A stretch of 42,479 nucleotides of DNA from Rubritepida sp. (lineage in GTDB: Bacteria; Pseudomonadota; Alphaproteobacteria; Acetobacterales; Acetobacteraceae): NCBI GenBank assembly GCA_028291455.1, contig JAQGHY010000245.1, positions 1 to 42,479 on the forward strand. The letters run 5' to 3'. The notes under the pieces are model-generated. The model was not told where the DNA came from and ran no database searches. It saw nothing but the letters and a program-made list of their open reading frames with translations. The position numbers and the translations under genes were made by a program. Every line of letters begins with the position of its first letter. Positions within the stretch are counted from its first letter, which is position 1. Below are positions 9,782 to 27,826 of the stretch, piece after piece.

Positions 9782-11034
9782 ATCGTGACCCCAAGATGGC
9801 CGGCGACGGTGAAGATGTCCTTGTCGCCCCGGCCGCTCATGTTCAACACGATGAGCTTGTCGGCCGGTAGGGTCGGCGCCAGCCGCAGCACATGCGCCAG
9901 GGCATGCGCGGGCTCCAGAGCGGGAATGATGCCCTCCAGCTTCGAGCAGAGCTGAAAGGCGTCCAGCGCCTCCTTATCCGTCGCGTTCACGTAGCTGACG
10001 CGGCCGAGCTCGTGCAGCCAGGAATGCTCCGGCCCGACGCCGGGATAGTCGAGGCCGGCGCTGATCGAGTGGCCCTCCTGGATCTGGCCGTGCTCGTCCT
10101 GCAGCAGGTAGGTGCGGTTGCCGTGCAACACGCCGGGACGCCCGCCGGTGAGGCTGGCGGCATGCTCAGGCGTGTCGATGCCGTGGCCGCCGGCCTCGAC
10201 GCCGTGCATCTCCACCGAGGGATCGTCCAGGAAGGGGAAGAACAGCCCCATGGCATTCGAGCCGCCGCCGATGGCGGCAACCAGCGCATCCGGCAGCCGG
10301 CCCTCCGCCTCCTGCATCTGCCAGCGGACCTCCTCGCCGATGATCGACTGGAAGTCGCGCACCATCACGGGATAGGGGTGCGGACCCGCGACCGTGCCGA
10401 TGCAGTAGTAGGTGTCCTCGATATTGGCGACCCAATAGCGCAGCGCCTCGTTCATCGCGTCCTTGAGAGTCGCGGCGCCGGAGGTCACGGGAATCACCTC
10501 GGCGCCGAGGAGCTTCATGCGAAAGACGTTGGGCTGCTGCCGCTCGACGTCGGTTGCGCCCATGAAGACGGTGCAAGGCAGGTTGAAGAGCGCGCAGGCG
10601 GTGGCGGTCGCGACGCCGTGCTGCCCAGCGCCGGTCTCGGCGATGATGCGCGTCTTGCCCATGCGCCTGGCCAGCAGGATCTGGCCGAGCACCGCGTTGA
10701 TCTTGTGCGCGCCCGTGTGGTTCAGATCCTCGCGCTTGAAGTAGACCTTCGCTCCGTCGCCGGGGCGCGGCGCCAGGGCTGCGCAATGCTTCGTGATGCG
10801 CTCGGCAAACCAGAGCGGGCTGGGGCGACCCACGTAATCCTTCAGCAGGAGACGCCATTCCTTGTCAAAACCAGGATCCTTCTTCGCGGCCGAATATGCG
10901 GCCTCGACTTCGAGGATCAACGGCATGAGGGTTTCGGCGACGTAGCGGCCGCCGAACGTCCCGAACCTGCCGGCGGCGTCGGGGCCGCCCTTGAAGGTGT
11001 TGGGCCGCAGGGGCGGCGTGAAGGGCGTGTTCAA
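9778..11034 (-). CDS. trpB: Tryptophan synthase beta subunit
   Basis: TrpB is the PLP enzyme that condenses indole with serine to make tryptophan. The PLP lysine lies in [13 protein letters not shown] (K111 from the start used here), with [10 protein letters not shown], a GGGSNAMG phosphate loop and a C-terminal SGRGDKD. The start is uncertain because no ATG fits. The TTG at 11034 ([14 protein letters not shown], 418 residues, TGGGAA seven bases upstream) matches the family N-terminus. A TTG at 11094 would add 20 residues of no family resemblance. The gene is 69 bases downstream of trpF. Confidence 0.96.
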
Positions 11035-14146: not shown

Positions 14147-14221
<75 letters not shown>

Positions 14222-14283
14222 GTACCCTTCCCTAGCGTTAACAAAGGCATCCGAACGAAATCTCGGTTGTCTGACCGCCATTT

Positions 14284-14337
14284 TTCCAACTCCGTTCCAA
14301 CAAGCTGTTCCAACTCGATGGGAACGGGTCGGGAACG
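14284..14337. repeat. Short direct and inverted repeats before int (possible arm-type sites)
   Basis: TTCCAAC occurs at 14284, 14295 and 14308, and the oppositely oriented GGGAACG at 14320 and 14331. Spacings of about 11-13 bases place them on one face of the helix. They lie between the tRNA and the integrase stop, where arm-type integrase or directionality-factor sites would be expected. They could also form a hairpin (GTTCCAAC/GGGAAC) that terminates the early operon. Confidence 0.5.
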
Positions 14338-14342
14338 AAGCC

Positions 14343-15563
14343 TCACGCCTCTTCAGCCTCGGCCCGAATTCGCTGCTTAAAAGAGCGCGCGGCGGCTTTT
14401 TCGGTGCGAATCAAATAATGCCGGTCCAGCACCGCCCTGACGCTCTTGGGCGTGTGGCCGGTGATGCTGGCGATGCCGAGGTCATCCACGCCAGCTTCGT
14501 GGTTGCGCGTCACTGCCGTGTGGCGGAGCTCCATAAACCAGAGCGTGGCGATCTCCGGCATGCCGGGCATCTCCGGCAGTCCCCTCGCCGGGTCCGCCGG
14601 CAGGCCCTCGGCCGCGATGGCGCGGATGTCAGCGAATGTGTGAACGAAGGTGAATGAATTCCACGGCTTGCCTGTGCGCTCATTGAGCAGCAGCCGGGTC
14701 AGAGACTGCACGCGGCCTGGACGTGCCTGCTCGGCCTCGAGCCTCACGACCAGGTGAGGGACATGCTGGATCGGCAGGGCGATTCGCCGCTGGCTTTTGC
14801 CCTGCCGGAACACCAGCGCTCCCTGCTCCTTGGCCCAGGGCCCGAGGGAGATCACGTCCATCTCCCGCTGGCCGATCCATTCGTTAAGCATCACGGCCGT
14901 GCCTACGCTGTGCCAGCCGAGCCGATCGGCCACCGCGACATAATGCGTGACGGCCGCGGGCGACCAGAGCTGCGGGTCGCGCTGCCGCTGGACCTTGATC
15001 TTGGGGTTGGCGGCCGGGTTGGTGCCGGATTTCAGATAGCCCAGGCGCTCGCCTGACTGCAGCAGCAGGCGGAGCACGCGAATCGCCGCGGCAGCTCGGG
15101 CTGGCGTGCGGATGACGCGCCGCGCCTTCCCAGTCCCTTCCGTCCGCTCCAGGCATGCCTTGTAGAAGGCCTGGACGGCGGGGCCGGTGATGGCCCGTGC
15201 ATGCACGTCGCCAGACCATTTCTCGATCAGATCGAGATAGACGCCGTATTCGGCCCGCGTCCGCTCGGCGAGATCCTCCCACCAAGAGGAGGCTTTGTAG
15301 TCGCGGATGAGCGCGGAGACGGATCCGGGTACCGCTTGCTTGCTGCGCTCCAGCGCCGCCGGCGGCGCGTTGGGGCCCGCCACGCCATGGCGCCAGGCAT
15401 CGACCTCATCGTTCAGCTCTTCGGCTTTGATGCAGGCCGCCGCGGTGTCCTCAGGCAGGCTCATGGGCCTCCAGCCGAAGCCACGAAGCACTGCCGATGG
15501 CTGCCAATAGTAGAGCGTGCGGCCCTTTCTGGTCTTCCCAACGTGATGGAGAACCTTCGGCAC
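14343..15563 (-). CDS. int: Phage tyrosine integrase
   Basis: A 406-residue site-specific recombinase. From the GTG at 15563 (GGGGAGAG ribosome site just upstream) it has an arm-binding N-terminus (KTRKGRTLYYW), a core-binding domain (~80-190) and a C-terminal catalytic domain. Catalytic residues are R233 (GQREMDVISL), K256, R347 (MELRHTAV), H370 (SITGHTPKSV) and the nucleophile Y383 (DRHYLIR). The first His of the usual HxxR motif is Met here. It is the last gene of the leftward early operon and lies next to the tRNA target. A longer reading upstream of 15563 only covers the previous gene antisense. Confidence 0.93.
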   Translation of the reverse strand: MPKVLHHVGKTRKGRTLYYWQPSAVLRGFGWRPMSLPEDTAAACIKAEELNDEVDAWRHGVAGPNAPPAALERSKQAVPGSVSALIRDYKASSWWEDLAERTRAEYGVYLDLIEKWSGDVHARAITGPAVQAFYKACLERTEGTGKARRVIRTPARAAAAIRVLRLLLQSGERLGYLKSGTNPAANPKIKVQRQRDPQLWSPAAVTHYVAVADRLGWHSVGTAVMLNEWIGQREMDVISLGPWAKEQGALVFRQGKSQRRIALPIQHVPHLVVRLEAEQARPGRVQSLTRLLLNERTGKPWNSFTFVHTFADIRAIAAEGLPADPARGLPEMPGMPEIATLWFMELRHTAVTRNHEAGVDDLGIASITGHTPKSVRAVLDRHYLIRTEKAAARSFKQRIRAEAEEA

Positions 15564-15589
15564 GTCGCTCTCCCCTGCCCCGAGCAAGA

Positions 15590-15856
15590 CTATCGCACGC
15601 CGGCGGCTGCCCTGCGAAGGAGAAGTCCCTCGGTCTCCTCCTCCGCCGAGGCGGCGGCCGGCATCTGCTGGTTGAGCCAGGCGTCGATCGCCCGTGGATC
15701 CCAGCGAGTGCCACAACCCCGGATGGTCTTCGGGAAGCTGTGATCCTCCTCGAGCTCCGTTCGGTGCCGGTAGAACCAGTTGAGCGAGCGGCCGAGCGCT
15801 TTCGCCACGAGCGGGGCCGTCAAGAGATCGCGGGATGCTCCGAAGCCGTCAGGCAT
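15590..15856 (-). CDS. AlpA/excisionase-like DNA-binding protein
   Basis: An 88-residue protein with a MerR-type winged helix-turn-helix. LLTAPLVAKALGRSLNWFYRHR forms the helix pair, then SFPKTIRGCGTRWDPRAIDAWL gives the wing and final helix. This is the layout of AlpA regulators and recombination directionality factors, and the position directly upstream of int fits an excisionase. Its start overlaps the upstream gene by eight bases. A host-type AlpA transcription activator is the alternative. Confidence 0.72.
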   Translation of the reverse strand: MPDGFGASRDLLTAPLVAKALGRSLNWFYRHRTELEEDHSFPKTIRGCGTRWDPRAIDAWLNQQMPAAASAEEETEGLLLRRAAAGVR

Positions 15857-16112
15857 CTGGCTTGCGCCTCAACTGTGCCGGTCCGGCGCCAAGGCGGCCG
15901 TGACGGACCTCAGGAAGTCTTTCGCCCGTCAGCTCGAAGCGCAAGGATCCGATGGCTGCCCAAGCGTCGGCCGTCGTGCAGACGACGGTCCCCGCCGAAA
16001 GACAGGCCATCACGCCTTTGGCGGCGGCGGACAGTTGCTCGTACGCTCGCCTTCGGAGGGCGTCCGCGATCTCCCGCGAGGCATCTTGCGTCATGCCGCT
16101 GCCCTCAGGCAT
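15849..16112 (-). CDS. Hypothetical early phage protein (87 aa)
   Basis: A small, helix-rich protein with no domain I recognise (REIADALRRRAYEQLSAAAKG, then a stretch ending VRHGRLGAGPAQLRRKPDA). The ATG at 16112 has a good GGAG site seven bases away; an internal ATG at 16094 is also possible. It overlaps its neighbours on both sides by eight bases, consistent with a real member of the coupled operon. Confidence 0.6.
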   Translation of the reverse strand: MPEGSGMTQDASREIADALRRRAYEQLSAAAKGVMACLSAGTVVCTTADAWAAIGSLRFELTGERLPEVRHGRLGAGPAQLRRKPDA

Positions 16113-16464
16113 TTGAGATCTCCAGCAGCACGTCGGCGTGGCAGGCCTGGTCGAGGCGGCACCAGCAGGCGAGGTTCTTTCCCCGCAGGGTTTGGTGCGC
16201 GGCGATGCGGTAAGCGGTCTCTCGGGCGGTGAAGCGGCGAAACAGCCTCACGGCTTCCTCCGCGTTCGCGACGGGCCCGCAGCCCTTTGTGCCGCCGCCT
16301 GGCTCTATGCGATCTCGCGTCCACATGTGGCCGATGCGGAACGGGTTGCCCCACCGGCCGGGCCGCGCGACCACGACCGCAGGCAGGCCGTTGGCGCTGC
16401 GGCTGCGCTGGGCGAGGCTGGACCCGCGCTCCCGGGAGAGGCGGAGGCGGACGGGTGCCGTCAT
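16105..16464 (-). CDS. DUF4326 domain protein
   Basis: A 119-residue phage protein with the DUF4326 signature: VVVARPGRWGNPFRIG near residue 29 and the C-terminal LRGKNLACWCRLDQACHADVLLE, with two close cysteines and Cys-His. The family is widespread in phages; its biochemical role is not established. The ATG at 16464 has a GGGAGGAAG ribosome site; a reading frame extending upstream to 16542 only runs antisense in the preceding gene. It sits in a run with ASCH and DUF5131 genes. Confidence 0.82.
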   Translation of the reverse strand: MTAPVRLRLSRERGSSLAQRSRSANGLPAVVVARPGRWGNPFRIGHMWTRDRIEPGGGTKGCGPVANAEEAVRLFRRFTARETAYRIAAHQTLRGKNLACWCRLDQACHADVLLEISNA

Positions 16465-16727
16465 GCCTGCTTCCTCCCGTAGCCCATGCCGCGCAGCGCC
16501 TCGGCGACGAGGTTCCAGACGTGCGCCTGTTCGCTTGGCCAATTCGTGACGGTGCCCTGGCGCTGGATGACGTTCTGGTCGAGCGCGGCCTTACTCCGGC
16601 CCCGGAGCACGTGGATCTCGTAGTTCCGGCGCTGCATCGTGCCGCCGACGTTGCAGATGTGCATGCGGGCGAGCTCGGTCACCGCGCCCGTGATGGCTGA
16701 GTGCAGCTCGAAGCGAACGACGATCAT
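16461..16727 (-). CDS. Hypothetical early phage protein (88 aa)
   Basis: An 88-residue protein starting MIVVRFELHSAITGAVTELA and containing MHICNVGGTMQRRNYEIHVLRG. The pattern of alternating strands resembles small phage proteins often found in this gene neighbourhood, but I cannot name a family. It has a strong GGAGG ribosome site and overlaps both neighbours by four bases (ATGA junctions). Confidence 0.7.
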   Translation of the reverse strand: MIVVRFELHSAITGAVTELARMHICNVGGTMQRRNYEIHVLRGRSKAALDQNVIQRQGTVTNWPSEQAHVWNLVAEALRGMGYGRKQA

Positions 16728-17176
16728 GCCTCCGCCCTCCAGGTCCAGAAGCCCTGCATGCCTGTCGCCGGCGCCGGTGGCTCAAGCCGCTGGATCTCGG
16801 TGATCGGCCATCCCCATTTACTGTGATCGATGCGATCAGAATCGGCCTCCAGGCCGGGTATATCTCCCGCGCGGATGGGCGTTCCGAGCACCCCGGTGCA
16901 GACGATCGCGGAGCGCGGGAGCGTCATGCCGGCCAGCACCCGCTCCAGCAGCGCGATACTGCCGTGCACCACGAGGCCAGTGCCGAAGCTGCCTTCCTTC
17001 TGGAGCATCAGCAGCAGCTCCTTTACCTCGCCGCTCTTGATCGGGCGGGCTCCAGCATGGATGGCGATGCGCTGGCCCTGGACGTAGGCCGGTGCCGCCC
17101 ACCCTCGAAATTCGTAAGGCTTCAGACCTTCGGCGATCAGCGTCGCCCAGGGCTGCCAGATGGTGAGGGCTCTCAT
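16724..17176 (-). CDS. ASCH domain protein
   Basis: A 150-residue ASCH-domain (PUA-like fold) protein. MRALTIWQPWATLIAEGLKPYEFRGW is the diagnostic start, with the K and E of the cleft, followed by RIAIHAG and a CTGVLGTPIRAG strand. ASCH proteins bind RNA or act on modified nucleosides; some are amidohydrolases of N4-acetylcytidine. It starts at ATG 17176 with a GAGG site and overlaps the DUF5131 gene by four bases. The adjacency of ASCH, DUF4326 and DUF5131 suggests one nucleic-acid or nucleotide-related module; that is inference. Confidence 0.85.
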   Translation of the reverse strand: MRALTIWQPWATLIAEGLKPYEFRGWAAPAYVQGQRIAIHAGARPIKSGEVKELLLMLQKEGSFGTGLVVHGSIALLERVLAGMTLPRSAIVCTGVLGTPIRAGDIPGLEADSDRIDHSKWGWPITEIQRLEPPAPATGMQGFWTWRAEA

Positions 17177-18138
17177 GCCGGCACCTCGTTGTGCTCTACG
17201 CCATCGAGGAGGCGGCCGGCGGCCTTCTTGCCGACATGCTCCAGAACCGAACTGCCGAACGAGGTGAATTGCCGTGGGTAGTGATCGATCTGTGTGATCG
17301 GGCCGTCCCATTCACGCGGCGCAAGCGCAAAGCGCCCAGGTGTCTCAGATGGACGAGGATGGGCGTGGACCCATTCGCCCCACTGCTTGAAGAGGAACGG
17401 GACGCCTGCCGCCGCGCATTGATCGCGCAGGCTTCTGGCCCATTTCGGATTCATGGGACGGGCGTGCGGGCCGCTCTCGCCGCCGCAGATCACCCAGTCG
17501 ATCTCGGGCTTGGGCTGACCCGATTGGCGGCGCCACCCCCCATCTCCCGGAAGGTCGGTCTTCCACAAGTGCAGCGGGCCCGACCCGGTGTAGTGGATGC
17601 CGCACCGGCTCAAATCCACGGGCTCCAGCATCGGCTCGCAAGACAGAAAACGCTTCGCTGCGGGTACCGCCAGCAGCTGGGGGATGCGGCGGCTGGCCTC
17701 CGCTTGGTTCTCGACGGTCGTGCCGAGCCAGACGTTCCGCATCGGCGTGAGCAGCCAGGGCTCCGGCAGCATCTTGGCGATGTTCTGCGGCCGCTTCGTC
17801 AGCAGCAGCCAATCCAGGTTCTCGCAGGCGCCGATGAGAGCCCACAGGTCACGCCGCCACTCTGGCGGCACCTGGTTATCGAACACGTCCGCGAGGCTCG
17901 CGCAGAACACCTTGGCACGGCGGTCGTCGCGCTCGGCCTTGCGGTTCCAGGCGAGGGGCTGCCGCCAGTTGGCCTCGCTGGTGCGGTGCCGCTCGTGCGC
18001 CCCCCACTTCACGCCGAGGGCGCGGGCCGGCGTCGAGACCTCCGCATAGCAATGATCGCAGGCGGGTGAGACGGCGGTGCAGCCGATCCACGGGTTAAAC
18101 GTGTGGTTAGCCCATTCGATCTTCGTATCAGCGCCCAT
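17173..18138 (-). CDS. DUF5131 (phage Gp37/Gp68) three-Cys-motif protein
   Basis: A 321-residue protein of the phage Gp37/Gp68 family. It opens with IEWANHTFNPWIGC and has the diagnostic Cys cluster C20-x6-C27-x2-C30 (CTAVSPACDHCYAE). Further family marks are VFCASLADVFDN, WLLLTKRPQNI, VWLGTTVENQ, LSCEPMLEP and VICGGESGPHARP. The TIM-barrel-like pattern and Cys cluster resemble radical-SAM enzymes, but activity is unproven. Family members often have a partner gene (TcmP); none is seen here, and the ASCH gene occupies the neighbouring place. A GGAG site precedes the ATG. Confidence 0.9.
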   Translation of the reverse strand: MGADTKIEWANHTFNPWIGCTAVSPACDHCYAEVSTPARALGVKWGAHERHRTSEANWRQPLAWNRKAERDDRRAKVFCASLADVFDNQVPPEWRRDLWALIGACENLDWLLLTKRPQNIAKMLPEPWLLTPMRNVWLGTTVENQAEASRRIPQLLAVPAAKRFLSCEPMLEPVDLSRCGIHYTGSGPLHLWKTDLPGDGGWRRQSGQPKPEIDWVICGGESGPHARPMNPKWARSLRDQCAAAGVPFLFKQWGEWVHAHPRPSETPGRFALAPREWDGPITQIDHYPRQFTSFGSSVLEHVGKKAAGRLLDGVEHNEVPA

Positions 18139-18748
18139 CGGTCGGGGCTCCTAGGGCGGCGCGTCTCTCCATCCAGTCCTGGACCGCATCCAGGCCGATG
18201 CGGCGGAAGAGCGCCTCGGTGTCGTTGTTAGACACCTCGAGCGTCTCGACGCTGGGCAGCTCGATGTACGAGCGGCTGTCGCCGGAGAAGTCGTGCCCTG
18301 ACCGCCAGATCCGCAGCAGCAGGCAGTTGATCGCACCGAAGCGCTCCACGACGGGAGCGGCCTCGGCAGCGAAGCCGCTGTCCGAGACGATGAAGCCAGC
18401 GGCGAGCTTATGAAATAGCATGTCGTCGAGCAGCATCCGGCCGAACACGCCGGCCCCGTGCAGCGGCTTCATCATCTGCTCGGAGAAGGCGATGTAAGCC
18501 TGGCGCGGCGTGATCCCCAAGAACTCATCGCGCGGCTGGTCCTTGCATGCCTCGAAGTGGCCGTGGGGTGCGTAGTGCAGCCCATAGGCGGCATGCGTCC
18601 GCTCTTTCAGCACGCCGGCGAACTTCACCGGCCGGGCGCCCAGCCGGTTCGCCACGGCGTTCGCCAAGGTGTCCTTGCCCGCGCGCGGCGGGCCGTTCAC
18701 GAAGACGACGTAGGGCGTCTCCGGCGAACTCGCCTCCTCATCGAGCAC
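18128..18748 (-). CDS. P-loop kinase, deoxynucleoside monophosphate kinase-like
   Basis: A 206-residue P-loop protein. From GTG 18748 (ribosome site GGAGAAAG) the Walker A motif is NGPPRAGKDTLAN at residues 18-30, placed as in phage dNMP kinases. The middle region has FLGITPRQAYIAFSEQMMKP and FIVSDSGFAAEA, the latter being the usual Walker B-like strand. Such enzymes phosphorylate dNMPs for phage DNA synthesis, sometimes modified ones. Reading upstream of 18748 only enters the preceding gene in another frame. It overlaps both neighbours. Confidence 0.78.
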   Translation of the reverse strand: MLDEEASSPETPYVVFVNGPPRAGKDTLANAVANRLGARPVKFAGVLKERTHAAYGLHYAPHGHFEACKDQPRDEFLGITPRQAYIAFSEQMMKPLHGAGVFGRMLLDDMLFHKLAAGFIVSDSGFAAEAAPVVERFGAINCLLLRIWRSGHDFSGDSRSYIELPSVETLEVSNNDTEALFRRIGLDAVQDWMERRAALGAPTDGR

Positions 18749-18941
18749 GGGCTTTCTCCATCGCTTCGAGGCAGCGGACGCAGTGCCGCGCTGTCGGCAT
18801 CGTCTCGCGACGGCGAGCGGGGATGTCCTCGCCGCAGACAACGCAGGTTGGGGAGCCTTCGCCGCGCGGGCGCGCGGCCTGAATGGCATCGGCCGTCAGG
18901 GCCTCGGTGAGCGCGGTGGCGCGGTCCATGTCGTCGGGCAT
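18738..18941 (-). CDS. TraR/DksA-type zinc finger protein
   Basis: A 67-residue protein with a C4 zinc finger, C33-x2-C36 and C54-x2-C57 (PTCVVCGEDIPARRR and ARHCVRCLEAME), as in TraR and the C-terminal part of DksA. TraR binds the secondary channel of RNA polymerase and mimics DksA plus ppGpp. Short phage homologues are common. The N-terminal helix MPDDMDRATALTEALTADAI fits this. It begins at ATG 18941, sharing one base with the stop of the upstream gene (TGATG). Confidence 0.85.
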   Translation of the reverse strand: MPDDMDRATALTEALTADAIQAARPRGEGSPTCVVCGEDIPARRRETMPTARHCVRCLEAMEKARAR

Positions 18942-19741
18942 CACGCGGCCGCCTTCTCGGCGCGGACGGCGCGGGCGAACTCTTGGGCGTATCGCTCCGG
19001 CCAATCGAATTCCTCGATCAGATCCTTCGCGCCCTTGCCGTTGAGGATCATCGCTCGTCCCGCGACGCGATCCTCCTCAGATGGCGGTTGATTGGCGAGG
19101 AGAATGGGGGCTCGCTGCGCCGTCGTCGCGGGGCGCGAGACAGGCTCGGGCGGCGGCTGTCTCTCGACCTCTACGGCTCGGAAGCGCGCAGGGATGGACC
19201 TGCCCTCCCGCTCGAGCTTCCGCTTGATGCCCTGCTGCTTGAGTGCGTTAACCCCAGAGCAAGGTATTCCCTCCAGCGCATTGATCTGCTGCAGAACGAT
19301 GTCCATGGGCATTTCGGTAGGCCACAGCTCGCAGAACAGTTGCTTGCGCTCCGCCGTCCAGACCGCCGGATATGGCCCTCGATGGGATCCCGGCGCGCGC
19401 TTTACCAGTGGCTCCCGCCGCTTCGCCTTGAGGCGTTGCAGCGCACCGCCCGCGCTTGTTCCTACCGCGGTTGCGGCCGGCGCTTCGTGGCTCGGCTCAA
19501 CCAGGCGCGGGAACTGCCGCGCCACCTCCTCGGCCTCGGCCCTCTCGAAGTTGGCGAACAGCCCCTCGGCGATCGAGACCTCGCCCTCGATGCGCAGCCG
19601 CAGCTGCTCCACCACCTTGGAGAAGGGAGAGAGGAGGAAGGCATCGAGGTCGCCGATCAACGCGGCCGCATGCCGGCCCATGGCGATGTAGCCGGGCAGC
19701 TCGACGCCCTGGAGCGTTGGGAGGACGTGTGGGGCGCTCAT
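18941..19741 (-). CDS. Hypothetical phage protein with GcrA/Myb-like HTH
   Basis: A 266-residue protein in three parts. An N-terminal region of about 90 residues is helix-rich (VEQLRLRIEGEVSIAEGLF). The middle segment around residues 130-180 resembles a GcrA- or Myb-like DNA-binding helix set, reading VWTAERKQLFCELWPTEM and then SGVNALKQQGIKRKL. The tail contains AGRAMILNGKGAKDLIEEF. I do not recognise the whole protein. GcrA is a methylation-dependent regulator in alphaproteobacteria, so a regulatory role is possible but unproven. Confidence 0.65.
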   Translation of the reverse strand: MSAPHVLPTLQGVELPGYIAMGRHAAALIGDLDAFLLSPFSKVVEQLRLRIEGEVSIAEGLFANFERAEAEEVARQFPRLVEPSHEAPAATAVGTSAGGALQRLKAKRREPLVKRAPGSHRGPYPAVWTAERKQLFCELWPTEMPMDIVLQQINALEGIPCSGVNALKQQGIKRKLEREGRSIPARFRAVEVERQPPPEPVSRPATTAQRAPILLANQPPSEEDRVAGRAMILNGKGAKDLIEEFDWPERYAQEFARAVRAEKAAA

Positions 19742-19845
19742 GGCAGGATCCCGGTTCGGAAGGCGGTCACCACCCATGCGGTCAGCAGGCCGAGGGCTGC
19801 CGCGATCGCGTGCTGGGTGAGGCTGGGAAGCGGGCGGCGGAGCAT
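19738..19845 (-). CDS. Small membrane protein (35 aa)
   Basis: A 35-residue peptide, MLRRPLPSLTQHAIAAALGL and onward, with one predicted membrane helix over residues ~12-34. Its ATG shares a base with the stop of the HD hydrolase gene (TGATG), and its stop overlaps the start of the next gene (ATGA). This exact fit between two coupled genes is the main evidence that it is translated. Function unknown. Confidence 0.6.
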   Translation of the reverse strand: MLRRPLPSLTQHAIAAALGLLTAWVVTAFRTGILP

Positions 19846-20426
19846 CAGATCAGCCCCAGCCGCTCGGCGCGGTTCAGGAACTCCATGTAGGCCTCGTTGG
19901 CCGCCCACGGCTCCAGCGTCGGCATGGATGCGGGCTCCGGCAGTTCGCCCCAGGCCCAGGCGGAGCGGCGCATCAGGTCGCGGCGTTCAGTGGCGAGCAT
20001 GATGAGGTCCACCTGCTTGATGAGCGGGTGATCCATCAGCTCGGCGGAGAGGCCGAAGCGCGCGAACATTGCGATGTGGACCGCGCTCTCGGCCCCGCGC
20101 ACTAGGTCGCGGCCGAGCAGCTGCTTAACCGGCGTGGGAAGATCGCCGATCAGCGCCTCGTGTGCGTCATGCAGCAGGCCGGCGCGCCGCACGGCCAGCG
20201 GCTGATCGGCCAGCAGATCCGCAACGTGGCAGGAGTGCTGCGCCACACTGTAGGCGCAGGGCCCGTGGGTATGGCCGAGGAAGCGCGCGATGCGGGAGAG
20301 GCTGGTGGCGATCTCCGTCAGGCGAAGCATTTCGAGATCCGGCGCGTGCAGGTCGACACAATAGCCGGACGCAGTCTGCATCCAGGCGCCGTGGCGCGGC
20401 GGATCGAGCGGGCGGATCGCGTTCAT
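19845..20426 (-). CDS. HD-domain phosphohydrolase (YfbR-like)
   Basis: A 193-residue HD-family metal-dependent hydrolase. Metal ligands are H64 (SVAQHSCHVAD), H86 and D87 (LLHDAHEALIGDLP) and D140 (KQVDLIML). Phage relatives resemble the 5'-deoxynucleotidase YfbR and are thought to act on dNMPs. With the dNMP-kinase-like gene downstream it suggests remodelling of the nucleotide pool during infection. It overlaps the upstream gene by four bases and has no clear ribosome site of its own, so translation is probably coupled. Confidence 0.88.
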   Translation of the reverse strand: MNAIRPLDPPRHGAWMQTASGYCVDLHAPDLEMLRLTEIATSLSRIARFLGHTHGPCAYSVAQHSCHVADLLADQPLAVRRAGLLHDAHEALIGDLPTPVKQLLGRDLVRGAESAVHIAMFARFGLSAELMDHPLIKQVDLIMLATERRDLMRRSAWAWGELPEPASMPTLEPWAANEAYMEFLNRAERLGLI

Positions 20427-20833
20427 GCAATCCAGTCCATGGCTTTGGCCAGGCAGAAGCCCGCTGCCAGGATCATCGCCATGACGCAGGCCATCGCGCC
20501 CCGCATCCGCCAGTCTGGAAGCTGAGCCTCAATTTCCGCAGCGAGCGACCGGGCGCGTTCGGGCGTAATGGCTCGGCTAAGGCGACGCTCGAAGACGTGG
20601 CCCGTCTTGTCGTCCACCGCTTCGGCAAGGGCGTCCCGCAAGGCGGCAACCTGGAAGCGGTCGAAGCGGAACGGGGTGACCCGTCCCGAGGGCGTCAGGA
20701 CGATCGCGCCGTCGCTCTCTCGCGAGATCAGCACCACTCGCCCGTGATCGGCGATCACCTTCGCGAAGGCGGGCGGACCGTCCGGCTTGGCGGTCTCCGG
20801 CGCCGGCGGCGCAGCCTCGGTGACATCGCTCAT
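20423..20833 (-). CDS. Hypothetical protein with C-terminal membrane helix
   Basis: A 136-residue protein starting MSDVTEAAPPAPETAKPDG. A compact N-terminal domain (residues ~25-75, VVLISRESDGAIVLTPSGRV) is followed by a charged helix (DALAEAVDDKTGHVFERRLS, ERARSLAAEIEAQL) and one membrane helix near the C-terminus (GAMACVMAMILAAGF). This suggests a tail-anchored membrane protein facing the cytoplasm. No family recognised. It overlaps both neighbours by four bases. Confidence 0.68.
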   Translation of the reverse strand: MSDVTEAAPPAPETAKPDGPPAFAKVIADHGRVVLISRESDGAIVLTPSGRVTPFRFDRFQVAALRDALAEAVDDKTGHVFERRLSRAITPERARSLAAEIEAQLPDWRMRGAMACVMAMILAAGFCLAKAMDWIA

Positions 20834-20964
20834 GCGAGCCACCCGAGGCTGCTGGCGATGAAGGCAATGGCCAGCAGGATCATGCCGGCGGCGACGATCG
20901 CGGCGACGGCGTTAAACCAGCCGAGCGGCTGCGGCTGCGCTGAGTGGTCGGGAATGAGGGCCAT
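20830..20964 (-). CDS. Small membrane protein (44 aa)
   Basis: A 44-residue peptide starting MALIPDHSAQPQPLGWF with one long hydrophobic segment, AVAAIVAAGMILLAIAFIAS. Its start shares a base with the upstream stop (TAATG) and its stop overlaps the next start (ATGA), so it fits exactly between two genes. One of three consecutive or near-consecutive membrane-helix genes in this operon. Function unknown. Confidence 0.62.
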   Translation of the reverse strand: MALIPDHSAQPQPLGWFNAVAAIVAAGMILLAIAFIASSLGWLA

Positions 20965-21170
20965 TACGCGGCCACCTGCAGTTCGGGGCCGGTCCGCCGG
21001 TCGCACGACTGGAGAGTCCAGTCGGCGGGCTCGCCGCCCTCCATGTCCGCGGCTTCAGTACGCGCCTGGCTGATCGCCAAGGGGCGGCTCAGCGCGAGCA
21101 GGACCGAGACGTGGGATAATGCCGGCCGCGCGTGCCGGAGGGCGACGCGGTATTCTTGCTTGATGGGCAT
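20964..21170 (-). CDS. First gene of leftward early operon, hypothetical (68 aa)
   Basis: A 68-residue protein starting MPIKQEYRVALRHARPALSH at ATG 21170 with GGAGAG upstream; an in-frame ATG at 21182 is the alternative. The sequence has no recognised domain. It is the first gene after the repressor-controlled promoter and so would be expressed first upon induction, a position often used for host-takeover or regulatory proteins. Confidence 0.62.
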   Translation of the reverse strand: MPIKQEYRVALRHARPALSHVSVLLALSRPLAISQARTEAADMEGGEPADWTLQSCDRRTGPELQVAA

Positions 21171-21209
21171 CGTGCTCTCCATCCGCCATGTGCGGCGACG
21201 GACCGAGTG

Positions 21210-21328: not shown

Positions 21329-21700
21329 ATGCGGCACGGCGTCACCCGAGACGAGGTCCCGAAGGCTCCAATCCCGGATCTCGGTCATGCCTCGGCGATG
21401 CGTGGCGCAGAGCGAGTCGCCAAGATGGCAATGAAGGGGGATGTCGCTCAGCGGGTCACGGCGGCAACGCGCGACCTCGTAGCGTCATGGCGTGCGGAGG
21501 ATATCTCGGGAGCAAGCCTCCGCCGGCGCATAGAGGCGCTTCAGACCGAGATTGATTGCGCCCTACCTGGCGTCGAGCAATTCGTGGTGGATGCGGAGGG
21601 GCTGGAGGCTCGGCGCCATGCCGAATGTCAGTTCGCCGCTGTCAGGGCTATGTCCGACGTCATTGGCGGCGAGCTGCAGGAAATGGGGCTTCTACTCTAG
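21329..21700 (+). CDS. Hypothetical protein convergent with repressor
   Basis: A helical protein of 123 residues from ATG 21329 (126 from TTG 21320), starting MRHGVTRDEVPKAPIPDLGH and containing DLVASWRAEDISGASLRRRIE and QFAAVRAMSDVIGGEL. No family recognised. It faces away from the leftward early promoter and its stop overlaps that of the CI-like gene by four bases, so it is antisense-adjacent to the repressor. In this place other phages carry immunity or exclusion genes. Reality of the gene is supported mainly by protein-like composition. Confidence 0.55.
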   Translation: MRHGVTRDEVPKAPIPDLGHASAMRGAERVAKMAMKGDVAQRVTAATRDLVASWRAEDISGASLRRRIEALQTEIDCALPGVEQFVVDAEGLEARRHAECQFAAVRAMSDVIGGELQEMGLLL

Positions 21701-22272
21701 GCTCTCGTCCGCGCCCGCTTCACCCACTCAACAGGGGTGGCCCAGTCGAGCGCGAGATCCTCGCTCTCTTCCTGCGTGTCGTAGCTAAAAAGCCGATAAT
21801 GGCCGCGGGCCAGGCCGCGTAGAACCCGCTTCACCAAGATGCGACCGTCGGCGACCTTGACCATGCAGTCTTCGCCTATCACGTCATCATCGACGCGGGT
21901 CCGCCGGTTGAAGAAGAGGATGTCGTTCGGCCGATAAACCGGAAGCATCGACTTCCCGATAACCTCGGCTGCGATCGGGTCGATCAAGCCAGGCGGACCA
22001 TCGAGCCAGATGGTCTCCTCGTCCAGCGGGATGACTTCAGCTCCGGCACCGACGTTTCCGAAGAGCCGGACCGGTTCCGGAAAGCTCGATAGAAGTTGCT
22101 CTGGAGCTGACAGGCCAAGGTACTTCGCCATTTCGACGAAGGCCTTCGGGAACAGCTCCATCGTTCCAGACTCGTACCGCCAGATAGTCGATTTATCGAC
22201 CGAAATGCGATCGGCCAAATCCTGCTGGGACATGCCAGAGGCTTTGCGCAACGCCTTGATACGATTGTGCAT
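21697..22272 (-). CDS. cI: CI-like repressor (XRE HTH plus S24 peptidase)
   Basis: A 191-residue LexA/CI-type repressor. The N-terminal helix-turn-helix is GMSQQDLADRISVDKSTIWRYESG (residues 13-36). A linker leads to the self-cleavage domain, with the probable Ala-Gly site in NVGAGAEV (~76-77), S108 in GKSMLPVYRPND and K148 in RILVKRV. DNA damage should trigger RecA-assisted cleavage and induction. The ATG at 22272 is preferred: it lies just past the predicted promoter, and the earlier ATG at 22293 overlaps the -10. It should bind the TGCAT-N3-ATGCA operators. Confidence 0.92.
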   Translation of the reverse strand: MHNRIKALRKASGMSQQDLADRISVDKSTIWRYESGTMELFPKAFVEMAKYLGLSAPEQLLSSFPEPVRLFGNVGAGAEVIPLDEETIWLDGPPGLIDPIAAEVIGKSMLPVYRPNDILFFNRRTRVDDDVIGEDCMVKVADGRILVKRVLRGLARGHYRLFSYDTQEESEDLALDWATPVEWVKRARTRA

Positions 22273-25403: not shown

Positions 25404-25838
25404 ATGGGGCGTATGAGCAAGGCGAACCGCGCAGCGATGGTGGCGGCCGCAGGCATGGTTGGGCCGCCGTCGGGCGGGCGCATGGCGCCATCGACGATCA
25501 GCATCAACGGTGGGCCGGAGGTTCCGTTCCCGGTGTTGAAGGCCGCCCTCGACACCGTGAGGGGGCGCGATGCGCCTCCGCCGCCGCGAGACGACGACAA
25601 TGACGTCGGCGGCATCGCGGTCGATCGACTGCGCTCCATCATCGATCGCATCGAGCGGCTGGAGGAGGAGCGCAAGGCGCTCGGCTCCGACATCACCGAC
25701 ATCTACACCGAGGCGAAGTCCGCGGGCTTCAACGTGAAGGTGGTCCGCCAGGTCATCCGCCTTCGCAAGATGGAGCCGGCCGAGGTGGAGGAGCTGGAAA
25801 CCCTGCTCGACCTGTACCGCCGCGCCCTGGGGATGTGA
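25404..25838 (+). CDS. GapR-like (DUF2312) DNA-binding protein with N-terminal extension
   Basis: A 144-residue protein whose last ~80 residues match GapR/DUF2312: RLRSIIDRIERLEEERKALG, DITDIYTEAKSAGFNVKVVR and QVIRLRKMEPAEVEELETLL, ending in DLYRRALGM. GapR of Caulobacter binds overtwisted DNA ahead of forks and polymerases and stimulates topoisomerases. Here the domain follows about 60 residues of Gly/Pro-rich sequence not found in the ~90-residue host protein. Position beside DnaB suggests help with phage replication. A GGGGGACGTC ribosome region precedes ATG 25404. Confidence 0.88.
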   Translation: MGRMSKANRAAMVAAAGMVGPPSGGRMAPSTISINGGPEVPFPVLKAALDTVRGRDAPPPPRDDDNDVGGIAVDRLRSIIDRIERLEEERKALGSDITDIYTEAKSAGFNVKVVRQVIRLRKMEPAEVEELETLLDLYRRALGM

Positions 25839-26225: not shown

Positions 26226-27110
26226 ATGGGAAGCCGCTGCTCGTGCGACCGGATCGAGGCGATGCTGGAAGGCACGCCCTGGTTCAAGACGTTGGAAGGG
26301 AGCGCGCGCTGGCTTTGCTTCAAGCTCGTGAAGCTGATGTCCACGCCCTCCTACGCCGGCGCGATACCCTTTTCGGATACCCGTCGGGTTTCGCTGTTGG
26401 TTTCGATGGACGGAACCGAAGTGCAAACCCATCTCGAAACCCTGGTGGAAACCGGCCTGCTGGCCCGCGACGATCGCGGCTATCTCTCCTGCCCCATGCT
26501 CGGCGACGTGGCGGCGCGGACCGTGGCGGCGCGCCAGAACGGCACGCGCGGCGGCCGTCCACGCAAGGGAGAGACACCGGAGCAATACGCGGCGCGGCGG
26601 CGCCAGGGCGAGATGCTGCTGCCCATCGGGGGCATGGCGGAGAAACCCAGCGAAACCCAGCAATGGGAAACCTCGTCGGCCGGCGCGGCGCCGCGTACTA
26701 CTAGTAGTTCTTCTCTTAGGTCAGAGACTACTCAACCAGTCGCGCACGAAGGCGAATGGCAGAAGCTCGCATCGCTCGCCATCGCAGCGGCGGCGCTTCC
26801 CGGCAAGCGCATCGCCTGGACGCCAGCGCAGCAATGGGAGGCGTGGGGTGCGACGCCCGAGCTGGTGGAGCGTGTCGTCGGCGACGTGATGCGGCGCGGC
26901 ACGAAGGCGCCCTCGGAGATCAGCTCCATCCAGTACTTCTCCAATGCGATCAAGCGCGCGGTGGATGAGGCTGGCGGCACCTCCGCGCCATCTGCGGCGA
27001 GCATCGTGCGTCACCAGCTCACCGGGCTCGAAGCACGAATGCGCACATGGGAGGAGAGCGGTCATCACGGCCCGCCGCCCCGCCTGCACGACCAGCACCA
27101 CGCAGCATGA
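26226..27110 (+). CDS. Winged-helix-like phage replication protein, long copy
   Basis: A 294-residue protein. The N-terminal ~90 residues are winged-helix-like (WFKTLEGSARWLCFKLVKLM; LLARDDRGYLSCPML). A basic linker follows (NGTRGGRPRKGETPEQYAAR), then a Ser/Thr-rich stretch around the palindrome ACTACTAGTAGT, and a C-terminal helical domain (LASLAIAAAALPGKRIAWTP, SSIQYFSNAIKRAVDEAGG). It is probably the phage replication initiator or helicase loader partner of DnaB, by position. Its stop overlaps the next ATG by four bases. Confidence 0.6.
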   Translation: MGSRCSCDRIEAMLEGTPWFKTLEGSARWLCFKLVKLMSTPSYAGAIPFSDTRRVSLLVSMDGTEVQTHLETLVETGLLARDDRGYLSCPMLGDVAARTVAARQNGTRGGRPRKGETPEQYAARRRQGEMLLPIGGMAEKPSETQQWETSSAGAAPRTTSSSSLRSETTQPVAHEGEWQKLASLAIAAAALPGKRIAWTPAQQWEAWGATPELVERVVGDVMRRGTKAPSEISSIQYFSNAIKRAVDEAGGTSAPSAASIVRHQLTGLEARMRTWEESGHHGPPPRLHDQHHAA

Positions 27111-27826
27111 TGGAGGCCAGAAAGATGCTTGACGGAATCAACGCGGCGGTGGCAGACAGCAGCTTCAAAGTGGAAGCGATAGGGCGTCGTGCGGCGGGCC
27201 CTGTCACTCTGCCGGAGATGCCTCGGCACTCCGAACAACTGGATGAGGCTCCGGCCCCTCCAGTGCGGCGCACATCTTCTCTCATCGCGGAACGCTGGTA
27301 CTGCATCCAGCATGAGAAATATCAGGGCGCTCGTGCGCGGCTGAACATCCGGCGTGCTGGCTTTGGTCCCGACGATGTCCACTGGCCCCGCGCCATCATT
27401 CGCGATCCTCGCAAGGATGACGTGCTGGAGCCGCTCTTCCCCGGTTACCTGTTCGTCCGCTTCGATGTTCGACGCTCCGGCTGGGGTAAGATCCGGCATG
27501 CGGGCAACGTGCTCGCCATCCTTGGCGTCAGGGAGATCGGCTCTCCCATCGCCATTCCCGTCGGCGAGGTCGAGCGATTGATCGACCTGGCTCAAGGCGC
27601 AATCGGCGGCGCGATCGACAAGACGGGTGACCAGCTGGAGGAGGACCGTCTCGCCTCCATCCTCGCCTCCGGCACGAAGCTAACTTTCCTGGACGAGGCT
27701 CTCTTCGCCAACCCCGTGATGCTCCGTGCCGATCGAGGCCGCGAGCGGGTCGAGATCATGATGACCTGGTTCGGTGAGGAGCGGATCGTCAGCGCTCGCC
27801 GCGACGCTATGAAGCACGCTGGATGA
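27107..27826 (+). CDS. NusG/RfaH-like transcription elongation factor
   Basis: A 239-residue protein. After a ~55-residue N-terminal extension it has a NusG N-terminal domain: ERWYCIQHEKYQGARARLNI, then VLEPLFPGYLFVRFDVRRSG and GWGKIRHAGNVLAILGV. A C-terminal segment (SGTKLTFLDEALFANPVMLR, EERIVSARRDAMK) is KOW-like but diverged. Such proteins bind the RNA polymerase clamp and suppress pausing or termination. Coming last before the packaging and head genes, it is a good candidate for a late-gene antiterminator acting like Q or RfaH; that role is inferred. Confidence 0.85.
   Translation: MMEARKMLDGINAAVADSSFKVEAIGRRAAGPVTLPEMPRHSEQLDEAPAPPVRRTSSLIAERWYCIQHEKYQGARARLNIRRAGFGPDDVHWPRAIIRDPRKDDVLEPLFPGYLFVRFDVRRSGWGKIRHAGNVLAILGVREIGSPIAIPVGEVERLIDLAQGAIGGAIDKTGDQLEEDRLASILASGTKLTFLDEALFANPVMLRADRGRERVEIMMTWFGEERIVSARRDAMKHAG

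Follow-up and report, generated by a model that had tools for sequence, protein, structure and literature searches.

A radical-SAM-type DUF5131 protein with recurrent ASCH and DUF4326 partners in a Rubritepida prophage: a candidate phage module for altered nucleobases

What use might a phage have for an enzyme of the radical S-adenosylmethionine (SAM) type that is encoded in one operon with a putative nucleic-acid-binding protein and with nucleotide enzymes? The question arises from a 42,479-nucleotide contig of Rubritepida sp. (JAQGHY010000245.1, assembly GCA_028291455.1; the whole stretch is called the window). An operon on its minus strand runs leftward from 21182 to 14343, and profile searches recovered all the genes that a preliminary description had named in it: an HD nucleotidase, a deoxynucleoside monophosphate (dNMP) kinase-like protein, and members of the DUF5131, ASCH and DUF4326 families. 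All operon features given below lie on this strand. Because the grouping of DUF5131, ASCH and DUF4326 genes recurs in other viruses, we conclude that it is probably a real phage module for altered DNA or RNA bases.

The DUF5131 (Gp37/Gp68) protein (17173..18138; 321 amino acids) matched the curated PF07505 profile at 304.3 bits (E = 8e-91), far above its cut-off of 28.9. Its AlphaFold2 (AF2) model, made from an alignment of 66 rows, had a mean predicted local distance difference test (pLDDT) score of 85.7. These rows were the window protein and the 65 of 75 relatives that were kept after removal of near-copies; two sequences had been excluded beforehand: L013, which has a broken cysteine motif, and L002, which duplicates the window protein. 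When the model was compared with the PDB by Foldseek, the top six matches were all spore photoproduct lyase (SPL) (E 4e-4 to 4e-3, probability 1.00). A second aligner, VIA, which scores only candidates supplied by Foldseek, also favored SPL (SplB; PDB 4fhc, 4rh0), with Z 14.1 over 209 residues at 11-12% identity, while viperin-like proteins scored 11.4, lysine aminomutase and lipoyl synthase about 10, and the RNA enzyme MiaB 7.5. We take the first 28 VIA rows, in part from their titles, to be radical SAM enzymes throughout; the first other fold follows them at Z 8.1. Thus, the predicted model has the radical SAM superfamily fold.

Sequence comparisons gave a more distant picture. A search for a solved relative returned none (best E 0.5), and an NCBIfam scan up to E = 1, which presumably included an SPL family profile, returned only TIGR04471 (rSAM_mob_pairA). 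The window protein matched this family at 6e-11 and 42 bits, below its cut-off of 355 bits, and none of the proteins found in a TIGR04471 search of 299 genomes reached that cut-off either (best 8e-30). By sequence, TIGR04471 is therefore best described as a homologous neighbor family to which the window protein does not belong. In a viral structure library, two matches scored below 0.001, neither with a function.

The preliminary description had noted a C-x6-C-x2-C motif, and it is exact in the window protein (C20, C27 and C30; 18049..18081), where the three cysteines would be the [4Fe-4S] ligands. With hhalign, the window segment FNPWIGCTAVSPACDHCYA aligned onto LNPYRGCEH---GCVYCYA of PA0069-family radical SAM proteins (probability 77.5, E = 1.9e-5), using a profile from 30 genomes that include the window's own. 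The alignment places N-P-W-x-G-C-x6-C-x2-C-Y-A on N-P-Y-x-G-C-x3-C-x2-C-Y-A, with three residues inserted; the PA0069 proteins are, we assume, SplB-like. The three conserved cysteines thus stand where radical SAM proteins carry their cluster motif, and common descent with the canonical CX3CX2C is probable. Accepted radical SAM families with other cysteine spacings exist. Together, the fold matches and the motif alignment bear out the earlier suggestion that DUF5131 resembles radical SAM proteins, and from its predicted structure it looks like a radical-SAM-type variant marked by its CX6CX2C spacing.

Of the distinct DUF5131 proteins, 45 of the 46 from genomes and 104 of the 105 from viruses retain the motif. 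Before repeats were collapsed, in a set that counts some places more than once, 185 of 187 rows had CX6CX2C, one had CX7CX2C and one was broken. (The DUF5131 protein at L013, 7785-8921 on the plus strand, is 63% identical to the window's and has no third motif cysteine.) Among 140 dereplicated proteins, C20, C27, D84, K115, R116, S166, E168, P169 and E221 were present in all, C30, R227, K251 and Q252 in 139, and C241 in 134; this conserved core is common to phage copies and to the TcmP-linked copies discussed below. SPL repairs a thymine dimer by radical chemistry and uses C140 as hydrogen donor. By analogy, C241 could be the hydrogen donor of DUF5131. The two enzymes differ in cysteine spacing (CX3CX2C in SPL) and in most of their sequence.

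DUF5131 relatives occur in 152 of 50,697 phage records, and a sample of 150 genomes from the taxonomic family to which the host belongs contained 18 with a DUF5131 gene. The radical SAM assignment is not new in itself, since TIGR04471 is named as radical SAM and the record of Erythrobacter phage ZS04 annotates its DUF5131 gene in the same way. A text search of 5.39 million papers found the name DUF5131 in none of them. The kinship to SPL and the linkage to ASCH and DUF4326 were likewise not seen in literature searches, one of which was noisy and listed part of its matches.

The gene for the ASCH protein (16724..17176; 150 amino acids from the start coupled to its neighbor, at 17176) overlaps that of DUF5131 by 4 nt. 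As a single sequence, the protein stayed below the Pfam threshold (PF04266, 19.0 bits against 21.2). A profile of 33 relatives matched the PDB sequences of human ASC-1 (4e-16) and EOLA1 (2.5e-9). The protein carries GxKxxExR, named as the ASCH motif in an excerpt of PMC6803910, at G17, K19, E22 and R24, and the K, E and R are invariant in the 33 aligned rows. Its model (pLDDT 92.6) has a PUA-like fold, with the best matches to ASC-1/TRIP4, including crystal complexes with double-stranded DNA (dsDNA; 8yfi, 8yfj and 9kyl), followed by the RNase ZmASCH at E 3e-3 and weaker. Judged by motif and predicted fold, the window protein is a genuine ASCH protein despite its Pfam score, and it is a probable duplex- or DNA-binding partner. 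Unlike ASC-1/TRIP4 and EOLA1, with which it shares motif, profile matches and fold, it is a stand-alone phage protein.

The DUF4326 protein (16105..16464) scored 68.3 bits against PF14216 (9e-19; cut-off 25). Its gene overlaps its neighbor and begins at a coupled ATG at 16464; this start and that of the ASCH gene are both shorter than the longest open reading frames (ORFs). DUF4326 is predicted to process ADP-ribose-linked phosphates (an excerpt of PMC9503650) and to bridge NAD-based signaling and DNA modification (an excerpt of PMC7824862).

The preliminary description had proposed looking for linkage of the three families in other phages. We scanned a viral collection and took the best 80 of 136 DUF5131 matches and the best 80 of 534 DUF4326 matches; the counts describe these samples. 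Neighbors were found by profile searches, and "near" means within 1.5 kb on the same strand. As controls, we used 58 loci of similar mean length anchored on relatives of this phage's DnaB helicase, whose hosts may differ. Loci include near-copies, such as L044/L045/L047 and L255/L257. DUF5131 was present in 26 of 80 DUF4326-anchored loci, near in 20, and the 28 ASCH-anchored loci included 10 with DUF5131, near in 8, compared with 1 of 58 controls; two DUF5131 partners in the DUF4326-anchored set are a fragment (L238) or near a contig end (L275). Six of the 28 ASCH-anchored loci contained DUF4326, which was near in 5, and six of the 80 DUF4326-anchored loci contained ASCH, which was near in 3. 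The controls contained no window-type ASCH, no DUF4326 and no HD nucleotidase. After anchors were clustered at 80% identity, DUF5131 was found in 11 of 41 DUF4326 clusters (P 0.004) and 8 of 21 ASCH clusters (P 0.001), compared with 1 of 34 control clusters, and window-type ASCH in 11 of 69 DUF5131 clusters and none of the 34 control clusters (P 0.009).

Where the families co-occurred, they also lay closer together than random placement within contigs would predict, in a test that counts related loci as independent: 20 of 26 DUF4326-DUF5131 pairs were near (8.1 expected), as were 8 of 10 ASCH-DUF5131 pairs (2.7 expected) and 5 of 6 ASCH-DUF4326 pairs (1.4 expected). A second ASCH-like family, ASCH by motif only and with no Pfam match, was near DUF5131 in 11 of 14 cases (3.5 expected).

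All three families lie in one fetched stretch of six further viral contigs (L003, which is identical with L203, and also L195, L201, L218, L251 and L259). L259 and L201 are compact and keep the window's order of DUF5131, ASCH and DUF4326, with DUF5131 proteins only 34% identical to the window's; one member is about 3 to 6 kb off in L003, L195 and L251, and ASCH is about 2 kb off in L218. The genes are also found in Rhizobium phage vB_RleM_PPF1 (host in the record, Rhizobium leguminosarum F1), where a single overlapping run consists of DUF5131 (PPF1_62), two genes, DUF4326 (PPF1_59) and ASCH (PPF1_58). In mycobacteriophage Melissauren88, the genes for DUF5131 and DUF4326 overlap each other and have recombination and replication genes as neighbors. 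The linkage, whose absence was among the refuting outcomes named in the preliminary description, is supported both against DnaB controls and in individual viruses.

Several other families were considered as partners. The gene for Dcm lies near DUF5131 in 15 of 23 cases (6.5 expected), but control loci contain it just as often (19 of 58); we rejected it as a specific partner. An excerpt of PMC3765255 ties SOS-linked SRAP and ImuB-C genes to SplB-like photolyases; SRAP was dropped as a partner of DUF5131, with 0 of 80 DUF5131, 0 of 28 ASCH and 1 of 80 DUF4326 loci. Separately, 10 of the 80 DUF5131 loci (e.g., L003, L016, L039 and L068) encode, no more than 1.5 kb from DUF5131, a family with AYPLxWP...PRT near its N-terminus that is in none of the 58 controls; the one member scanned gave only faint DnaJ and MCM matches.

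The explanation we favor, tentatively, is a phage module that carries out radical chemistry on a nucleobase within nucleic acid, as repair or counter-defense. The combination of a radical enzyme resembling a lesion-repair enzyme, a probable duplex binder and a predicted phosphate or ADP-ribose enzyme suggests base chemistry in nucleic acid. DUF5131 would carry a [4Fe-4S] cluster on C-x6-C-x2-C and cleave SAM, and the resulting radical would react with a nucleobase of the phage's or the host's nucleic acid. Binding to the duplex or to the altered base would fall to the ASCH protein, and an associated phosphate or ADP-ribose-type product may be what DUF4326 works on. Such a module would most likely serve to repair, or as counter-defense against, a base lesion or adduct. 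In a bolder and quite unlikely version, this CX6CX2C branch, guided by ASCH and assisted by DUF4326, reverses a base adduct that the host places on phage DNA, such as an ADP-ribosylated base, and the TcmP-paired chromosomal form is its host counterpart; if true, this would be direct-reversal counter-defense by radical chemistry. The SPL fold kinship and the link to ASCH and DUF4326 make DUF5131, so far an unnamed family, testable as an enzyme of base chemistry, and PPF1 is a named phage with all three genes that could be used for the test. There is a partial precedent in Pseudomonas phage M6, which reportedly hypermodifies thymidine with a radical SAM step. Like M6, the window has a phage-encoded radical SAM enzyme, here possibly acting on a base; unlike in M6, the other enzymes of that pathway were not noticed among the proteins scanned here.

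A number of observations weigh against this explanation. The Foldseek E-values for DUF5131 are moderate, with a TM-score of 0.42 on the model length; its cysteine spacing is non-canonical, and the hhalign match is only 28 columns long. That the substrate is nucleic acid is our inference; other substrates of radical SAM enzymes include small molecules and proteins. For DUF4326, the literature offers the ADP-ribose role only as a prediction. Most DUF5131 loci have no partners: an ASCH-type gene is within 1.5 kb in 17 of 80 (6 window-type, 11 of the second family) and DUF4326 in 7 of 80. Around DUF5131 clusters, DUF4326 was not significantly enriched (6 of 69 compared with 0 of 34, P 0.08), and the second ASCH-like family is also present in 1 of 58 control loci. 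Finally, the placement test ignores kinship among loci, and closeness alone is weak evidence, because Dcm is near DUF5131 yet as common in control loci.

A second explanation is that DUF5131, ASCH and DUF4326 are independently useful cargo genes that often land in the same operons without cooperating. None of seven tracked families was within 1.5 kb of 41 of the 105 distinct viral DUF5131 proteins, although part of this set was fetched via DUF4326 or ASCH, and Dcm, which is common everywhere, is likewise near DUF5131. Partners also come and go on a tree of 140 DUF5131 proteins, with 23 label changes for ASCH-type, 16 for DUF4326 and 7 for TcmP; this quick tree mixes anchored sets partly chosen by labels, such that label frequencies are biased. 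However, repeated independent joining fits a functional link too. As co-occurrences are far fewer in control loci, all three families recur in six further contigs and PPF1, and the three genes are translationally coupled in the window, we consider uncooperative cargo rather unlikely.

A third explanation comes from the chromosomal relatives. Of 46 distinct DUF5131 proteins from genomes, 26 have TcmP encoded within 1.5 kb; this set of 46 includes the window's own and was fetched in part with TIGR04471, which favors the TcmP-linked type. None of the 105 distinct viral proteins has such a neighbor (43 of 70 genome rows and 0 of 116 viral rows before collapsing). In PADLOC, DUF5131 matches the candidate defense proteins PDC-M41B/M30B and TcmP matches PDC-M30A/M41A. 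The window copy matches the B gene and has no TcmP within 1.5 kb. This TcmP/DUF5131 pair (TIGR04474; PDC-M30/M41) has the same DUF5131 enzyme core as the window, although the TcmP-linked copies are shorter (223-244 aligned residues compared with 320). The window's genome has a second DUF5131 gene, paired with TcmP, on contig C51 (L105, 5759-7665, minus strand). At L124 (genome G013), DUF5131 is broken into two ORFs next to a gene for a conjugative relaxase. No convincing match for TcmP was found among solved structures (catechol O-methyltransferase, E 0.056).

Thus, the chromosomal pair might be a defense system that the phage copy, which is without TcmP, interferes with or exploits. The TcmP counts, the PADLOC matches, the common core and the pair on C51 fit this idea, and findings on DUF5131 would bear on the PADLOC candidate pair too. 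Yet TcmP/DUF5131 is only a candidate defense system: an excerpt of a Pseudomonas survey reports PDC-M30 in 32 strains, of which 68.8% were resistant (PMC10855318). Further, any meeting of phage copy and pair is hypothetical, and the DUF5131 tree does not show the direction of any transfer. We regard interference with, or exploitation of, such a pair as improbable.

It is also doubtful, and to about the same degree or slightly more so, that the target of the phage module is RNA, with DUF5131 modifying tRNA or rRNA and ASCH as its RNA-binding partner. Consistent with such a role, the feature under the match is annotated as an RNA methyltransferase in 5 among 60 phage records listed, and excerpts of PMC5615036 and PMC6972931 describe the Zymomonas ASCH protein as a single-stranded RNase and the Escherichia coli ASCH protein YqfB as acting on N4-acetylcytidine. 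However, the closest fold to DUF5131 is that of the DNA repair enzyme SPL rather than that of MiaB, whose Z is about half as high, and the closest ASCH structures include the dsDNA complexes.

The preliminary description had seen in the HD nucleotidase and dNMP kinase the hallmark of phages with changed DNA bases. The HD-type 5′-deoxynucleotidase-like protein (19845..20426) matches phrog_318 (5e-55) and scores 22.9 bits against Pfam YfbR-like (cut-off 25.9); the dNMP-kinase-like P-loop protein (18128..18748), whose gene overlaps both neighbors by 11 nt, matches phrog_139 (6e-33) and scores only 13.7 bits against Pfam DNMK. HD was present in 9 of 80 DUF5131 loci compared with 0 of 58 controls, and after clustering in 6 of 69 compared with 0 of 34 (P 0.08). 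It was within 1.5 kb of DUF5131 in 4 of the 9 co-occurring loci (2.3 expected, P 0.19), and of seven HD-anchored viral loci, two contained DUF5131, near in none. The kinase was found in 0 of 80 DUF5131 loci, a weak test that used a single-sequence profile in a collection scan without relatives for iteration. Among 39 proteins of the window and the contig with attR (not every ORF), Pfam detected no thymidylate-synthase-like hydroxymethylase, base glycosyltransferase or deazaguanine enzyme. A base-hypermodification cassette, with a base-building enzyme beside nucleotide enzymes, was therefore not recognized in these proteins, and part of the sequence between the two contigs may be absent.

Although both nucleotide enzymes share the operon and HD is absent from control loci, wholesale base replacement, in which these enzymes would clear or feed nucleotides for a replaced or hypermodified base made using DUF5131, is very improbable and not supported by the sequence, because HD shows no significant closeness to DUF5131, that single-sequence profile recovered the kinase nowhere else, and no hypermodification enzyme is among the 39 proteins. 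For the first two of these reasons, the second a weak result, we also rejected a nucleotide-pool module as the core, and we do not count the HD nucleotidase and dNMP kinase, which share the operon, as members of the base-chemistry module.

The operon lies in a prophage whose left end is in the window, beside a tRNA-Thr gene (14147-14221, plus strand). A core of 47 bases at 14177-14223 (plus strand), mostly the 3′ part of this tRNA gene, is repeated exactly in the same genome at G000:C193:15551-15597. From their sequence, we read the two repeats as attL and attR, and because the core is repeated there, contig C193 would be the opposite prophage end. The operon comprises 14 ORFs, one fewer than the fifteen coupled genes of the preliminary description; the coupling itself holds, as 12 of 13 junctions overlap or are at most 2 nt apart. 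Eleven junctions overlap, six by 4 nt (ATGA or GTGA) and the rest by 1, 8 or 11 nt. Depending on the start chosen, the junction of the excisionase and integrase candidates is a 2-nt gap or an overlap, and the sole sizeable gap, 67 nt, separates the HD nucleotidase from a 278-amino-acid ORF.

The operon begins with three small ORFs: the first of the run (20964..21182) and a second coupled ORF (20830..20964), both defined from the sequence and junction analysis, and one (20423..20833) for which NCBIfam, PHROGs and PADLOC scans gave no convincing family. The HD nucleotidase is followed by the 278-amino-acid protein (18941..19777), with only a sub-threshold DUF3275 match (E 0.013), a TraR/DksA-type zinc-finger protein (18738..18944; PF01258, 2.5e-9), the dNMP-kinase-like protein, DUF5131 and ASCH. 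Between ASCH and DUF4326 is an 88-amino-acid protein of phrog_8231 (16461..16727), with 4-nt overlaps on both sides. After DUF4326 come an 87-amino-acid protein (15849..16112) without a convincing family in Pfam, NCBIfam and PHROGs, an HTH_17-like excisionase candidate (15590..15856; 14.8 bits, cut-off 27) and, adjoining it, an integrase candidate (14343..15716). For the integrase candidate, neither Pfam (up to E = 1) nor a scan of the viral collection gave a match; by eye, it shows tyrosine-recombinase signature residues near its C-terminus. Upstream of the operon is a candidate helix-turn-helix (HTH) repressor (21697..22272, minus strand; NCBIfam RstR-type HTH, 2.9e-8, below cut-off). The layout, leftward between repressor and integrase and ending at the att site, suggests that the operon is early; a promoter scan found none, with 0.9 expected.

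Outside the operon, the rightward arm of the prophage encodes a NusG-domain protein (27107-27823, plus strand; PF02357, 3.7e-10), a possible phage antiterminator, and the prophage also encodes a GapR-like DNA-binding protein (25482-25838, plus strand; PF10073, 2.8e-30). On C193 (L373), inside attR, a Pfam scan detected a D12-type N6-adenine methylase, and a TIR protein of the CAP12/Pycsar effector type (10063-10785, plus strand; PF10137, 4e-32), likely prophage defense cargo, lies between lysozyme and methylase genes. Close to attR on the same contig is an SRAP gene (14243-14965, plus strand, as an open frame with an MC start inside; PF02586, 1e-17), which would sit near the integrase gene once the prophage was excised to a circle.

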